Part shown: piece by piece, positions 57,457-63,841 of the stretch
Numbering within the stretch: position 1 is the stretch's first letter
Layout: the number at the start of each line of letters is the position of its first letter
Source of the DNA: Thermoflexibacter ruber
GTDB lineage: Bacteria; Bacteroidota; Bacteroidia; Cytophagales; Thermoflexibacteraceae
Reading direction: 5' to 3'
Length of the DNA stretch: 64,000 bases
NCBI RefSeq assembly: GCF_900113045.1
Contig: NZ_FONY01000003.1
Location: forward strand, 1 to 64,000
Program-made: the position numbers and the translations under genes
The notes under the pieces: model-generated
What the model saw: only the letters and a program-made list of their open reading frames with translations
What the model was told of the DNA's origin: nothing
Databases searched by the model: none

Positions 57457-58269
57457 TTATATGAAAGAAGTATATAACGTTCTTATACTTAGCAAGATAA
57501 TAACTATACCTACTAAAACCATAAAAACTTTACGGTTGATTTTGGTGCAGAGATAGGCGGCGAAGGGTGCGGCAATGACTCCTCCTATCAAGAGCCCAAT
57601 AACTGCTTGCCAATCAGTGATTTTCAAAAAAATCAAAAAAGTACCTGCCCCAGCCAAAGAAATGAAAAATTCTGCCAAATTTACTGTTCCTACCGTATAG
57701 CGTGCATCTCTACCATTTTTTAGCAAGGTAGAAACCACTACGGGTCCCCAACCTCCGCCACCTATCGCATCTAAAAAGCCTCCCACAAAAGCTAAAGGGT
57801 AGAGGCGTTTGGTTTTTGTCCTTTTCTTATTTTTTTGTAAGGCTTTTCTAATCACAATTCCTCCCATAATTGCCAAATAAACAGCTACATAAGGTTTCAT
57901 TACTTTCCCATCAAAATTGCTTAAAATATAAGCACCTGTAATTACTCCCAAGCAACCAGGAATGATTAGCCCTTGCAGTAGCTTTTTATTCACATTTTTA
58001 AATTTCAAATGCGATAGACCTGAAACCCCTGCAATAAAGGTTTCTGCGATATGTACGCTTGCACTTGCATTGGCAGGCGGCAAGCCCAAACTGACCAAAA
58101 AGCTATTGGAACTGATGCCATACGCCATGCCCAAAGAACCATCTATCATCTGAGCGGTAAAACCTGCCAAAATAAAAAAGAGTAAACTTGTATCTGCTAC
58201 ACTAATGCCTGCTGAAAACCAAGCACCTATCGCTGAAAATATGTCGAGCAAGTACAAATAAGAAATCAT
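57457..58269 (-). CDS. TauE/SafE-type permease, probable sulfite/sulfate-related transporter
   Basis: 270 residues with seven or eight membrane helices. The duplicated family motif is visible: GFTAQMIDGSLGMAYGISSN in the first half and FVGGFLDAIGGGGWGPVVVS in the second, with ASASVHIAETFIAGVSG and TVGTVNLAEFFISLAG as matching pairs. Relatives export sulfite or organosulfonates. It is the last gene of the minus-strand sulfate-assimilation run, so sulfite efflux or sulfate import is a reasonable inference, although 224 bp and a hairpin separate it from cysN. Confidence 0.87.
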   Translation of the reverse strand: MISYLYLLDIFSAIGAWFSAGISVADTSLLFFILAGFTAQMIDGSLGMAYGISSNSFLVSLGLPPANASASVHIAETFIAGVSGLSHLKFKNVNKKLLQGLIIPGCLGVITGAYILSNFDGKVMKPYVAVYLAIMGGIVIRKALQKNKKRTKTKRLYPLAFVGGFLDAIGGGGWGPVVVSTLLKNGRDARYTVGTVNLAEFFISLAGAGTFLIFLKITDWQAVIGLLIGGVIAAPFAAYLCTKINRKVFMVLVGIVIILLSIRTLYTSFI

Positions 58270-58493: not shown

Positions 58494-59822
58494 TTATTCT
58501 AAGAAACCGACCGCTACCGTAGCATTTGTTTGTGAATCAATTAAGATGAACGCACCGTTTGCCTTATTCTCCGCGTATAAGTCATAAAAAATAGGTTGTG
58601 CGGTGCGAATATGGACTTTCACTATGTCATTGAGTTTGATTTCATTGATTTTTACAGGTTCGTCAAACTCATTAATTGATGTTAACCGTGTCCCCACAGA
58701 CAAAACTGCTTGCCCAAAATTTTCAATATCCACTTTATAGCTGATTTCCTGAATTTTCGCTTTTACTTCGCTTGAGGCGTGTTTTAAAATGAAGGTCGTC
58801 CCTAAGCGATAAGGGTTTTCACTCAACCAGCAAACTTTTGCTCGTAAGTCTTTGTTAATTAGTGGAATTGCATTACTTTTCACTATCATGCTTCCTCTGC
58901 TGATGTCGATTTCGTCGGCTAAGGAAATAGCTATAGAATCGTGAGCAAATGCTTGATTTAAAGTATCCTCGAAAAGACGAATTTCTGTAATTGTACTTTC
59001 AAGTTGGTTAGGAAGCACCATAACTCTGTCCCCTACCTGAAATGTACCACTGATGACTTTGCCTGCATAGCTTCTATAATCAGGAAATTCTTTATCATCT
59101 CTGCGAATGACGTACTGCACAGGGAAGCGAGCAGGTAAACTATTCCAATCTTTGTCGGTATCAACTTCCTCTAAAATTTCTAACAAGGGTTTGCCAATAT
59201 ACCAAGGCATTTTCTCAGATAAGTTAGCGATATTATCTCCATGCAAGGCACTGACAGGAATGAAGGTGATATTAGCCGCCCCACCCTTGCCCTCAGTATG
59301 CACTGCGCCCCCAGAGGAGAGGGAATTTGCAAGTTTTTGGAAATCAGAGGCTATTTTATAAAAAACCTCTTCTGAATAGTCCACCAAGTCCATCTTGTTT
59401 ACGCAAACAATGATGTGGGGGACTCTAAGTAAAGTGTTGATAAAGAAGTGCCTGTACGTCTGCTCCACTACTCCTTTTCTTGCATCTATCAGGATAATAG
59501 AAAGTTCTGAATTAGAAGCTCCCGTAATCATGTTGCGAGTGTACTCTATGTGTCCTGGAGTGTCTGCTAAAATAAATTTTCTCTTATTGGTATGGAAATA
59601 AATATGGGCAACATCTATCGTTATGCCTTGCTCTCTCTCTGCCACTAAGCCATCGGTCAGCAGGGACAAGTCCGTGAAATCCAAACCTTTGCGTCTGCTT
59701 GCTCTTTCTACTGCCTCCAATCTGTCTTTAGTAAGGGACTCAGTATCATACAGTAAGCGACCTATTAAGGTGCTTTTTCCGTCATCTACGCTTCCTGCGG
59801 TTGCTAATTTTAGTACGTTCAT
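58494..59822 (-). CDS. cysN: Sulfate adenylyltransferase, GTPase subunit
   Basis: 442 residues, an EF-Tu-like GTPase without a fused APS kinase. GSVDDGKSTL (P loop), DTPGHIEYTRNM (G3) and VNKMDLVDY (G4) are intact. LTDGLVAEREQGITIDVAHI is the switch region. Coupled GTP hydrolysis drives ATP sulfurylase (CysD), making APS from sulfate. The lack of a CysC domain fits a reductase that takes APS directly. It follows cysD after 91 bp. Confidence 0.95.
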   Translation of the reverse strand: MNVLKLATAGSVDDGKSTLIGRLLYDTESLTKDRLEAVERASRRKGLDFTDLSLLTDGLVAEREQGITIDVAHIYFHTNKRKFILADTPGHIEYTRNMITGASNSELSIILIDARKGVVEQTYRHFFINTLLRVPHIIVCVNKMDLVDYSEEVFYKIASDFQKLANSLSSGGAVHTEGKGGAANITFIPVSALHGDNIANLSEKMPWYIGKPLLEILEEVDTDKDWNSLPARFPVQYVIRRDDKEFPDYRSYAGKVISGTFQVGDRVMVLPNQLESTITEIRLFEDTLNQAFAHDSIAISLADEIDISRGSMIVKSNAIPLINKDLRAKVCWLSENPYRLGTTFILKHASSEVKAKIQEISYKVDIENFGQAVLSVGTRLTSINEFDEPVKINEIKLNDIVKVHIRTAQPIFYDLYAENKANGAFILIDSQTNATVAVGFLE

Positions 59823-59913: not shown

Positions 59914-60804
59914 TTAAAAATACCCCTGCTTTTTGCGTTCTTCCATAGCAGATTCCGAACGCTTGTCATCGACTCTTGCACCTCTTTCTGAGATAGTTGC
60001 TTCGCTAATTTCTTCTATGACGGTATCTATGTCATCAGCAAAAGAAGGCACAGCCGCTGTGCAAGTCATGTCGCCTACGGTGCGAAATCTTACGGTAGCT
60101 TCAAATATTTTCTCATCGGCTTCTATATTCATAAAAGTAGAAAATGGAAGTATAAGTCCATCTCTTTCAAATACTTGGCGTTTATGTGCAAAGTAAATAG
60201 AAGGAATCCCAATTTGCTCTTGACGGATATAGTTCCATACATCTAACTCTGTCCAATTGCTGATAGGAAATACTCTTACATTTTCTCCAAATTGTATTTT
60301 TCCGTTATAGAGGTCAAACAATTCTGGTCTTTGGCGTTTTGCGTCCCACTGCCCAAACTCATCACGCACAGAAAAAATGCGTTCTTTTGCCCTTGCTTTT
60401 TCCTCATCTCGCCTTGCGCCGCCTAAGCAAGCATCAAAGCCTAACTCCTCTATTGCCTCTAATAAAACTGTGGTTTGCAAGTAATTGCGGCTTGCATACT
60501 TGCCCTTTTCCTCTACTACTTTCCCTTGGTCTATGGCATCTTGCACATAGCGCACTACCAAGTCTAAGCCCAAGTCTTTTACCAACTTATCTCTGAACTC
60601 AATGGTTTCTGGGAAATTATGTCCTGTATCTATATGCAAAAGTGGAAAAGGAATTTTTGCGGGAAAAAATGCCTTTTGCGCCAAACGAACCAAAGTAATG
60701 GAATCTTTCCCTCCCGAAAATAGCAAGGCTGGTTTCTTGAACTGACCCGCTACTTCCCTGATAATGTGGATAGATTCGCTTTCTAAATATTTTAAATAAG
60801 ACAT
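59914..60804 (-). CDS. cysD: Sulfate adenylyltransferase, catalytic subunit
   Basis: 296 residues of the PP-loop pyrophosphatase family. SGGKDS (30-35) binds ATP, and PLLHIDTGHNFPETIEFRD, GGARRDEEKARAKERIFSVR and WNYIRQEQIGIPSIYFAH are standard CysD segments. Together with CysN it makes APS from sulfate and ATP. It follows cysH after a 385-bp spacer filled by a REP-like repeat. Confidence 0.96.
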   Translation of the reverse strand: MSYLKYLESESIHIIREVAGQFKKPALLFSGGKDSITLVRLAQKAFFPAKIPFPLLHIDTGHNFPETIEFRDKLVKDLGLDLVVRYVQDAIDQGKVVEEKGKYASRNYLQTTVLLEAIEELGFDACLGGARRDEEKARAKERIFSVRDEFGQWDAKRQRPELFDLYNGKIQFGENVRVFPISNWTELDVWNYIRQEQIGIPSIYFAHKRQVFERDGLILPFSTFMNIEADEKIFEATVRFRTVGDMTCTAAVPSFADDIDTVIEEISEATISERGARVDDKRSESAMEERKKQGYF

Positions 60805-61189: not shown

Positions 61190-61906
61190 TCATTTTGCGT
61201 GTAAGCCACATTCCTTTTGCGAGCTTTCCCACCACCATCGACCAGCTCTGATGTCTTCATGAGGCTCAATGGCTCTTGTGCAGGGGGCGCAACCAATGCT
61301 TATAAATCCCTGGTCGTGTAGTGGGTTATAAGGCACTTTATTTTCTTTCAAATAGCTTATCGTTTTCTCTAATGACCAATTTATCAATGGGTTGTATTTA
61401 ATCAATTTAAAATTATTATCCCATTCTATAGCTTTCATTTCAAAGCGATTAGCAGACTGCTCGGCTCTTAGCCCTGTTATCCAAACTTCCACATCTTTCA
61501 AGGCTCTTTTCAAAGGATTGACTTTGCGGATAGCACAACACGCCTTACGGTTTTCCACAGAATCGTAAAAACTATTCAAGCCTTTGGTATTTACAAATTC
61601 CTCTACCTCAGCACTGTCTGGGAAATATATTTTTATCTTTTTCTTATATTTGGCTATAGTCAAGTCCAAGAGGTCGTAAGTCTGGTTAAAAAGTCTGCCT
61701 GTATCTAAGGTAAAAACCTGAATATCAATATTATTTTTGAAAATAATATCTGTGATTACTTGGTCTTCTTGTCCGAGTGAAGTAGAAAAAGCCACTTTCC
61801 CTTTGAAGTTTTCCGCCAGAAAAGTGAGGCTTCCTACTATGGTTTTATTTGTTAGTTGAGTTTGTAAGTCAGTTATTAGTTGTAAGTTATGAGTTAGGAG
61901 TTCCAT
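61190..61906 (-). CDS. cysH: Adenylyl-sulfate reductase (APS/PAPS reductase family)
   Basis: 238 residues. The PP-loop-like FSTSLGQEDQVITDI (40-54) and VFTLDTGRLF, then KACCAIRKVNPL (C123, C124) and GCAPCTRAI (C206, C209) give the four cysteines of a [4Fe-4S] cluster, which marks the APS-reducing type. The catalytic Cys233 is in KECGLH at the end. It reduces APS to sulfite with thioredoxin. With no CysC/APS kinase in cysN this is consistent. First enzyme gene of the sulfate run, preceded by a 44-codon leader ORF with a run of Cys codons. Confidence 0.94.
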   Translation of the reverse strand: MELLTHNLQLITDLQTQLTNKTIVGSLTFLAENFKGKVAFSTSLGQEDQVITDIIFKNNIDIQVFTLDTGRLFNQTYDLLDLTIAKYKKKIKIYFPDSAEVEEFVNTKGLNSFYDSVENRKACCAIRKVNPLKRALKDVEVWITGLRAEQSANRFEMKAIEWDNNFKLIKYNPLINWSLEKTISYLKENKVPYNPLHDQGFISIGCAPCTRAIEPHEDIRAGRWWWESSQKECGLHAK

Positions 61907-62076
61907 TTATCTTCTGCCTTATTTTTAGTTAGTTTAGTTTAAAGTTTGTGATTTGGTTTGAAATAGTTTGTTTGTTAGTTTATCTACTGATTGCGGTTAT
62001 TAGCAATGAGCAATCATCGTAAAATATTGATTTTAAAATACTTAAATAATAGATTATTATATGCGTGTGCGTTTAG

Positions 62077-62117
62077 AGCCTATATTGGAGGCTTTGGCTA
62101 TGGTCAAGGAATGCCAA
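62077..62117 (-). promoter_or_regulatory. Two small hairpins just after the cysteine leader ORF
   Basis: On the minus strand TTGGC...GCCAA (62117-62113 / 62098-62094) and then AGCCT...AGGCT (62093-62089 / 62081-62077). The AGGCT arm can also pair with an AGCC inside the first stem, so the two may be mutually exclusive. They begin about 9 nt after the leader stop codon. No U-run follows. Farther down, TGATTGC / GCAATCA forms another 7-bp stem. Confidence 0.4.
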
Positions 62118-62125
62118 GAATGAGA

Positions 62126-62260
62126 TTAACAGCAACAACAACAACAAATGTTGTAAAAAGCTATTGGTGCGATGTAAGCAGTGGTTCTAACAAGAAAATG
62201 ATAGGATTTTGAAGAATCCGAACTTAGAAGTGAACTAAGATTTTGAAACAGTGTTTTCAT
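62126..62260 (-). CDS. Putative cysteine leader peptide of the sulfate-assimilation operon
   Basis: 44 residues from ATG 62260: MKTLFQNLSSLLSSDSSKSY at the start, and YNI followed by six Cys and stop at the end. The last codons (62146-62126) are TGT four times, TGC, TGT and then TAA. Six consecutive codons for the pathway's end product directly before a stop, 220 nt upstream of cysH on the same strand, fit a ribosome-stalling attenuation leader that senses charged tRNA-Cys. Small hairpins follow the stop. Such Cys-codon leaders are known upstream of sulfur genes in Actinobacteria; I do not know a described case in this phylum. A plus-strand frame (61991-62212) covering the same bases is regarded as a shadow. 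I could not find a consensus promoter. Confidence 0.65.
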   Translation of the reverse strand: MKTLFQNLSSLLSSDSSKSYHFLVRTTAYIAPIAFYNICCCCCC

Positions 62261-62476
62261 TTTTAATGAGTTTATATTATCCAAAAATTGGACAGGATTT
62301 GGCACCGTTCTATTTGAGTAGATGAATCAGAGGTTGCCAGAAGGTCTTAGAGCCTGTTCTCTCGCTTCGTTCTTTATAAACCATTCAGTAATTGAATAGA
62401 TGATGCAAAGATAAATACAAGTTTTGAAATTTTGCAAGAAAAAATTAAAAAAATTTCAAAATCTATGCTTTTGATT

Positions 62477-63841
62477 TTATTTTTTCAAAAATTTGATTTC
62501 TACGCGGTTATTATTCATCTCATCATTATTATCTTGTAGAGGTCTGAGGTTTCCATATCCTACAGAAGATAACTGATAGCCTTTTGCCCCTTTGCTCATT
62601 AAATATTGCTTGATTGATTCTGCACGTCTTTGGGTAAGTGTCTTGCTTGCGTTGGCATGAATAGTGTTATCGGTATGCACCCCAATTTCTATTTGTAATT
62701 TAGGATTATTTTTTAATATCGTTCCCAGCTCATCTAATTCTTCTAAGTTGATTTTATCTAATTCGTTGCTATTATTGCCAAATTTGACGGTTTGGAGTAG
62801 ATAGGGCTGCCCTACGAGCAAATTGGCGTATTTTTCAGGAAGTAAGAGAGTTTGAGTTGTATTGGTTGTTTTCTCCATAACTTCTTTTTCTTTGGTAGGC
62901 TCGGAATTTTTCTTTTTTCCAAAAGTATAATTGAGCATAATTTCATGAGTGCCGTTGGAGGCTATGCCTATATTCTGATTAGCAATTTCATAGGCATAGC
63001 TTGCTCTAATGTTTTCACTTACTTTGAACCCCATGCTCAAAGCATATCCATAGCTATTGCGATAACCTACTGACAACCATGCTTTTTCCTTCCATTCTGT
63101 AAGCAGGCTTATGTCTATCTGTCCAGGGAAAGTATTAGCAAAACGATAGAGCAAAATAGGCTCAAAAGTGAAATCGCCTTTTTTAGGTTTGATTTTATAA
63201 GAGGCACTCAAAATGCTATGATTCCCATAACGCAAGAAAGCATTGTTTAGGTCAAATTTTTTGCTTGCGCCGCGTGCAAAAAGATGGTGTACAGCCAAGC
63301 CTAATTGCAAGTTGTTGTATGTGTATAAGACGCTAAAATTTCCATCAGGTTGGAACTGGTCGTCGTTGCTGTATAACTTAGGGTCTATGAGGTCTTCGAG
63401 CATCACTCTGTCCCAATTAATGCTACTATACATTACTCCTAAGGATAATCCAAAAGAAAGTTTTTGCTTAGCACTGAGGTTGACAAGGTAAGCATAGCTT
63501 GCCAAAGCACTTGTTTGGGCAATGAGGTTGAGGTTTTCTCTTTTGAGGGTTGCTCCTAAGCCCATTTTTTGGGCGGGTAAGGTATGCTGGTAGGTCAAGA
63601 GGAATGTTTCTGGTGCCCCTTGCAATCCTGCCCATTGGTTGCGATAGATGAGATGTAATTGATTTGCCTCTTGCACCGCAATTTGTGAAGGATTGAATAG
63701 GAAACGATTGAGATAATAATGCGTCATCAAAGGTGCTTGCTGGGCATAAGTTTGTTTAGGAGGGATAAATAACCCTACGCAGATAGAGAGAGCAGAATAA
63801 AACAGAAGAATATTCAAAAAATGGTATTGACGTGTTTTCAT
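62477..63841 (-). CDS. PorP/SprF-type outer-membrane protein fused to an OmpA domain
   Basis: 454 residues. Signal peptide about 1-34 (ending TYAQQ). The mature start APLMTHYYLNRFLFNPSQIA and the following IYRNQWAGLQGAPETFLLTY are the hallmark of PorP/SprF, which anchors type IX secretion or gliding adhesins at the cell surface. The barrel runs to about residue 310. A Ser/Thr/Lys/Glu linker leads to an OmpA-like peptidoglycan-binding domain (about 345-454): IEIGVHTDNT, TLTQRRAESIKQYL, VGYGNLRP and NNNRVEIKF. Fusing both anchors outer-membrane machinery to the wall. Partner genes would lie beyond the window. Confidence 0.85.
   Translation of the reverse strand: MKTRQYHFLNILLFYSALSICVGLFIPPKQTYAQQAPLMTHYYLNRFLFNPSQIAVQEANQLHLIYRNQWAGLQGAPETFLLTYQHTLPAQKMGLGATLKRENLNLIAQTSALASYAYLVNLSAKQKLSFGLSLGVMYSSINWDRVMLEDLIDPKLYSNDDQFQPDGNFSVLYTYNNLQLGLAVHHLFARGASKKFDLNNAFLRYGNHSILSASYKIKPKKGDFTFEPILLYRFANTFPGQIDISLLTEWKEKAWLSVGYRNSYGYALSMGFKVSENIRASYAYEIANQNIGIASNGTHEIMLNYTFGKKKNSEPTKEKEVMEKTTNTTQTLLLPEKYANLLVGQPYLLQTVKFGNNSNELDKINLEELDELGTILKNNPKLQIEIGVHTDNTIHANASKTLTQRRAESIKQYLMSKGAKGYQLSSVGYGNLRPLQDNNDEMNNNRVEIKFLKK

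Follow-up and report, generated by a model that had tools for sequence, protein, structure and literature searches.

The sulfate-assimilation genes of Thermoflexibacter ruber are preceded by a short open reading frame (ORF) that closes on six cysteine codons, which raises the question of what this frame senses and whether it does so alone. Within the 64,000 nucleotides analysed here (the window; contig NZ_FONY01000003.1, positions 1 to 64,000), the region carries the following features, given from 5' to 3' on the minus strand:

62406..62413, minus strand: Bacteroidota -7 promoter box TATCTTTG (TAnnTTTG), the sole such box in 62600-61880
62269..62382, minus strand: SAM-I riboswitch aptamer (RF00162), 114 nt, full length, 70.1 bits
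62126..62260, minus strand: leader ORF of 44 codons plus TAA, start ATG 62260
62129..62146, minus strand: six Cys codons (TGT TGT TGT TGT TGC TGT), abutting the stop
62094..62117, minus strand: hairpin 1, TTGGC/GCCAA (fold; two-sided changes relative to the related locus L053)
62077..62093, minus strand: hairpin 2, AGCCT/AGGCT, no U-run 3' of it (fold; counterpart in L053)
61907..62125, minus strand: untranslated interval from leader stop to cysH, 219 nt, no internal promoter box
61190..61906, minus strand: cysH, (phospho)adenylylsulfate reductase (APS/PAPS reductase; Pfam PF01507, NCBIfam NF002537, TIGR02055)
59914..60804, minus strand: cysD, sulfate adenylyltransferase subunit (TIGR02039, 421 bits)
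58494..59822, minus strand: cysN, sulfate adenylyltransferase subunit (TIGR02034, 484 bits)
57457..58269, minus strand: TauE/SafE-family permease (PF01925, 137 bits)

The leader and its aptamer at the cysH locus

The 44-aa leader peptide, MKTLFQNLSSLLSSDSSKSYHFLVRTTAYIAPIAFYNICCCCCC, is read from ATG 62260 on the minus strand and ends at the TAA at 62128-62126. The initial annotation had described a 44-codon minus-strand frame with Cys6 and TAA followed by cysH, cysD and cysN; its coordinates are exact, and the NCBIfam matches agree with the three gene assignments, the distance from leader stop to cysH being 219 nt. Judging from gene order and strand, the TauE/SafE-family permease probably belongs to the same operon. 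An in-frame GTG at 62305, which would extend the peptide to 59 aa, was rejected as start codon because it falls inside the aptamer and does not correspond to the conserved start. On the 5' side of the leader, the same strand carries a gene (window positions 62477-63841) for a type IX secretion protein of the PorP/SprF family whose C-terminal domain is OmpA-like; the promoter box of the leader is situated in the gap between this gene and the leader.

The initial annotation had read the locus as a Cys-codon attenuator. Conservation strongly supports this reading, which nevertheless covers only part of the device: directly joined to the leader is a SAM-I riboswitch at 62382-62269 that had been overlooked. 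This aptamer, the only Rfam match in the window, covers model positions 1-108 and scores well above the RF00162 gathering cut-off of 44.4 bits; it is a predicted SAM sensor. Its P1 strands occupy 62382-62375 and 62276-62269, so that the 3' end of P1 lies 8 nt from the leader ATG and the helix covers approximately positions -9 to -16 relative to it. Each of the eight P1 positions is paired in no fewer than 21 of 26 loci with a Cys leader, among which the two outer pairs vary between A-T, G-C, G-T and T-A. From the position of the box TATCTTTG at 62413-62406, transcription is expected to start about 20 nt 5' of the aptamer; the cysH leader is not leaderless, since the aptamer and these approximately 20 nt separate the promoter box from the ATG.

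Recurrence in the genome and across Bacteroidia

The T. ruber genome, a 5.5-Mb draft in which genome-wide counts were made by pattern search, contains five SAM riboswitches, and four of them are followed, 8-12 nt 3' of the aptamer, by a leader ORF of 35-44 codons with a run of five to seven cysteines:

Cys5 leader ahead of metY, SAM riboswitch 5' of it
Cys6 leader ahead of cysH, SAM riboswitch 5' of it (the window locus)
Cys6 leader ahead of a TonB-dependent receptor, SAM riboswitch 5' of it
Cys7 leader ahead of sulfite reductase, SAM riboswitch 5' of it

The N-termini of the four peptides are mutually unrelated. (TGY)5-TRA sites occur exactly four times in the genome, and these are the four SAM-riboswitch leaders; the reversed (TGY)5-stop pattern, used as control, has no match in the whole genome. 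By our own arithmetic (five targets, each about 250 nt long, against 11 Mb of strand), the chance of four such coincidences is about 1e-16. The genome-wide count and the reversed-pattern control rule out a chance origin of the Cys run, which the initial annotation had already deemed very unlikely for Cys6 at a stop. The remaining SAM riboswitch, the weakest of the five (L005, G000:C50:71313-71444; 49 bits), lacks a Cys leader and lies ahead of an apparent GNAT-type acetyltransferase gene.

Across Bacteroidia, at least 121 such leaders were collected, mostly ahead of sulfur genes, with a median length of 42 codons and, in about half of them, a cysteine immediately at the stop. In the aptamer survey, where a Cys leader was defined as at least three Cys among the final 12 codons, the order sample had one at 24 of 38 aptamers whose P1 ends in TATAA and at 2 of 26 other aptamers, mostly of the metH type; in the remaining class, 2 of 5 TATAA-type and 0 of 32 other aptamers had one, and beyond Bacteroidia none of 47 did. 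The start codon keeps a nearly fixed place, 15-19 nt past the beginning of TATAA at 93 of 109 loci, and the median distance from leader stop to main gene is 137 nt. Leaders of the cysH type were found in the window genome, in two genomes of the same family (L053, L037) and in four of Pontibacter (L140, L141, L159, L177).

Named genomes were scanned for part of the aptamer core followed by an ATG and four Cys codons, with no reading frame required, and at least 119 stretches matched. A second aptamer core motif is present in 93 of the matches listed, and in all 93 the Cys run is in frame with an ATG 3' of the aptamer. These listed matches come from Hymenobacter, Pontibacter, Rufibacter, Fulvivirga, Chryseolinea, Mucilaginibacter and Solitalea as well as from Microscillaceae, Saprospiraceae, Flavobacteriales and further groups. 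Scan matches from outside Bacteroidota (Colwellia, Pseudomonas, Cupriavidus and others) are not among these 93; they have neither aptamer core nor in-frame Cys ORF and therefore serve as a negative control. The recurrence of aptamer and Cys leader in about 100 related genomes among the matches listed points to an RNA switch that is widespread and apparently not yet described.

A TAnnTTTG box occurs within 100 nt 5' of the aptamer at 101 of 121 loci (2-15 for permuted words) and only four times in the leader-to-gene intervals of all loci. Aptamer, leader and genes are therefore probably part of one transcript, and an internal promoter bypassing the leader, which we also considered, was rejected on the same counts, the window interval containing no such box at all.

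Two further loci stand apart. In L273 (G015:C1:544308, minus strand), a 33-aa ORF with a terminal Cys6 run is located 193 nt ahead of a TonB-dependent receptor, and Rfam detects no SAM aptamer; leader and riboswitch thus appear to be separable modules. In the genome of a relative, seven (TGY)5-stop sites (L282, L301; G026:C5:11211-14270) are spaced by multiples of 234 nt, which suggests an unrelated tandem repeat array.

A proposed two-input mechanism and its alternatives

The aptamer, the layout and its conservation, the codon bias of the leaders, the single upstream promoter box and the functions of the downstream genes can all be read from sequence, while a SAM-dependent block on leader initiation, the stalling of ribosomes and the kind of OFF step are inferred. 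It is likely, in our judgement, that the leader of the cysH locus is a composite cis-acting element responding to two sulfur inputs, in which a SAM-I riboswitch stands directly 5' of a cysteine-sensing leader ORF. The P1 helix lies within the initiation region of this ORF. At high SAM, P1 would be stabilised and initiation at ATG 62260 blocked, and the untranslated leader RNA would default to OFF through premature termination, most likely Rho-dependent at the cysH locus. At low SAM, ribosomes would translate the leader: with plentiful Cys-tRNA they would complete translation and be released, exposing the RNA past the stop and turning the operon down, whereas with scarce Cys-tRNA they would stall within Cys6, shielding or refolding the downstream RNA and permitting transcription into cysHDN. 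The operon would thus be ON just when both SAM and cysteine are low. In the versions ahead of met genes, which have Met codons mixed in, stalling would also occur at these codons when the charged tRNA is short. For the first step there is a precedent in Prevotella bryantii, also of the Bacteroidetes, where RNA structure close to the start codon lowers translation and structure at -21 does not, and where Shine-Dalgarno pairing is not functional (PMC3155529). Given this effect and the proximity of P1 to the start, a SAM-stabilised P1 should shut off translation of the leader.

The initial annotation had reported partly exclusive hairpins past the stop and no terminator with a U-run. Both hairpins are present, but clear exclusivity is not visible at the window locus, where the post-stop stretch is no more stable than its shuffles (z +0.55) and no pairing partner for the Cys codons can be seen (z +0.9). 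Over all loci, the post-stop RNA is more structured than shuffles (z -1.35 +/- 0.15, n = 82). Its pairing with the Cys-codon segment scores z -0.72 +/- 0.13, better than that with a control segment (-0.10 +/- 0.12). In Mucilaginibacter, GCAGUACACGU has as alternative partners, read from the alignment, the Cys codons or a downstream ACGUGU, a predicted set of pairings that is the classical attenuator arrangement. RNAalifold gave no strong consensus for whole clades, whose alignments are too divergent and for three groups of which the column-shuffle control is uninformative; two-sided changes were found at only a few local pairs of the clade alignments. An intrinsic U-run terminator between leader and cysH was indeed not found in the window, where 1 of 12 gene ends has an intrinsic terminator. 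The first 60 nt past the leader stop are rich in C (0.30-0.33) and poor in G (0.13) and constitute a candidate Rho loading stretch. Rho-dependent termination there is our preferred candidate for the OFF step at the cysH locus.

The same codon-sensing leader and riboswitch-controlled initiation could instead act on mRNA stability or on ribosome access to the main gene, with no premature termination involved. The missing intrinsic terminator in the window would fit such an output, as would the modest excess of terminator-like structures over shuffles (24% of loci compared to 13%). However, the final 40 nt ahead of the main start are A/U-rich and G-poor, which makes sequestration of that start unlikely, and the distance between leader stop and main gene (219 nt here, median 137 nt) speaks against simple translational coupling. 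We regard this variant as unlikely.

That the leader, in the preferred two-input reading, counts codons is indicated by its composition and by the genes behind it. The 121 leaders precede metY (O-acetylhomoserine sulfhydrylase) in 78 cases, metX in 11, cysH in eight and sulfite reductase in four, the remainder standing ahead of other genes, of which several relate to redox or sulfur functions. Among 102 non-redundant leaders, the N-terminal part contains 1.0% Cys and 1.0% Met, while the eight codons 5' of the Cys run contain 14.7% Met and 9.2% Cys. Met codons per leader tail number 3.45 ahead of metX, 1.55 ahead of metY and 0.75 each ahead of cysH and sulfite reductase; the codon mix thus tracks the downstream pathway, as one would predict for a sensor of charged tRNA. 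The N-terminal peptide appears not to be conserved and free to change, as its substitutions per codon position (49/29/48, with poorly aligning pairs below about 80% identity excluded) are those of an unconstrained peptide. Sensing via codons is, on this sequence evidence, well supported. In several leaders (L225, L082, L065, L097) Met rivals or outnumbers Cys, for instance MRMRMPMSCFSYMCA in L225; these Met-rich leaders, mostly ahead of metX, are possibly a mainly methionine-sensing version. SAM aptamers with Cys leaders also precede genes for a 4Fe-4S ferredoxin, an ATP-grasp ligase, OsmC-like proteins, a pyridine-nucleotide disulfide oxidoreductase and TonB-dependent receptors (L059, L115, L163; L117, L145, L167; L118, L160; L064; L002, L047). 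These targets may belong, so far unrecognised, to the sulfur regulon, with the TonB receptors as candidate importers of sulfur compounds.

Cysteine and methionine are both soft-metal ligands, and a nascent peptide rich in them might bind copper or zinc and stall for chemical reasons, irrespective of codon supply. A Cys-dependent copper uORF with Rho-dependent termination exists in Bordetella: CruR/DUF2946, a conserved protein family, senses copper by CXXC and arrests on RAPP, and its translation determines whether Rho terminates transcription ahead of the next gene (PMC9426467). It shares with the window leader the presence of cysteines in a uORF, but MKTLFQNLSSLLSSDSSKSYHFLVRTTAYIAPIAFYNICCCCCC has neither a CXXC nor a C-terminal RAPP motif and matches no family in NCBIfam. 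One leader of the T. ruber genome does stand ahead of a TonB-dependent receptor; the targets are, however, mainly genes of Cys and Met synthesis, the upstream aptamer is of the SAM type, Cys-run length and Met positions differ among leaders with no fixed CXXC or RAPP motif, and the Met content follows the pathway. We consider metal sensing very improbable. Least probable is that the riboswitch regulates alone, the ORF being no more than a side effect of the sequence 3' of the aptamer: SAM-I riboswitches are a well-known feature ahead of sulfur genes, and aptamers of the metH type in this phylum lack such an ORF, but the Cys run is in frame in every one of the 93 aptamer-bearing frame-blind matches listed, the ORF start keeps its near-fixed distance while the N-terminal sequence varies freely, and the (TGY)5-stop run is absent from the rest of the genome.

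With somewhat less assurance than for the cysH locus itself, we think it probable that these loci form a Bacteroidia-wide SAM-I subtype that uses a ribosome-stalling leader ORF as expression platform and works as a two-input AND gate with a pathway-tuned codon mix. The metabolite aptamer would decide whether the Cys/Met-codon counter is read at all.

Relation to known leaders and significance

In sequence and structure, the aptamer is a full-model SAM-I riboswitch (S box, RF00162), and like other members it lies ahead of sulfur amino-acid genes. It differs from the usual SAM-I riboswitch in its A/U-rich P1 ending in TATAA and in its presumed output, which would be initiation at a leader ORF, not a terminator and not the start of the gene itself. 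We know of no described riboswitch class that regularly acts through a leader ORF sensing amino acids. Sherlock 2018 (cited in PMC8632094) reportedly described tandem riboswitches as logic gates that combine two signals in one RNA leader; both inputs are metabolite aptamers in that case, whereas one input here would be tRNA charging read by the ribosome. Classical trp-type attenuators likewise have runs of regulatory codons in a leader ORF, and alternative pairings around the codons are predicted in some clades of our set as well, but the window locus has no U-run terminator and a metabolite aptamer would control initiation of its leader.

Polycysteine leader ORFs ahead of cys genes are known in Actinobacteria, mycobacteria included (PMC1262725; Canestrari, 2020, cited in PMC13236596), in line with the initial annotation. 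They resemble the window leader in being short ORFs with a Cys run at the stop, cys genes next to them and no obvious terminator. They differ from it in being leaderless, in having no upstream aptamer and in belonging to another phylum; an admixture of Met codons, present in the Bacteroidia leaders, is not reported in the portions of these sources available. The uORFC-8-2 ahead of cysS in Rhodobacterales is a further uORF with tandem Cys codons for which ribosome-mediated attenuation was proposed (PMC8632094). It has two Cys codons at positions 14-15, an intrinsic terminator and no riboswitch, in contrast to the Cys6 run ahead of cysH and the missing U-run terminator described here. For Flavobacterium psychrophilum, leader peptides ahead of amino-acid operons are mentioned in general terms (PMC9723704). 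Our search, largely confined to the open-access literature, found no report of Cys leaders in Bacteroidota, in agreement with the initial annotation, and none that links a Cys leader with a riboswitch. Both modules are already known; new, apparently, is their fusion into a two-input device.

If the proposed mechanism is true, this would be the first cysteine/methionine attenuator described in Bacteroidota, within the literature searched, and a natural case of a riboswitch connected in series with an amino-acid sensor based on the ribosome, present in about 100 genomes among the matches listed. With two inputs on one transcript, signal integration by RNA would become directly testable. Annotation of the aptamer alone, as in Rfam, would overlook half of the device in these bacteria. 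The phylum Bacteroidota is largely devoid of Shine-Dalgarno initiation, and the device would offer a route to the study of attenuation under such conditions.
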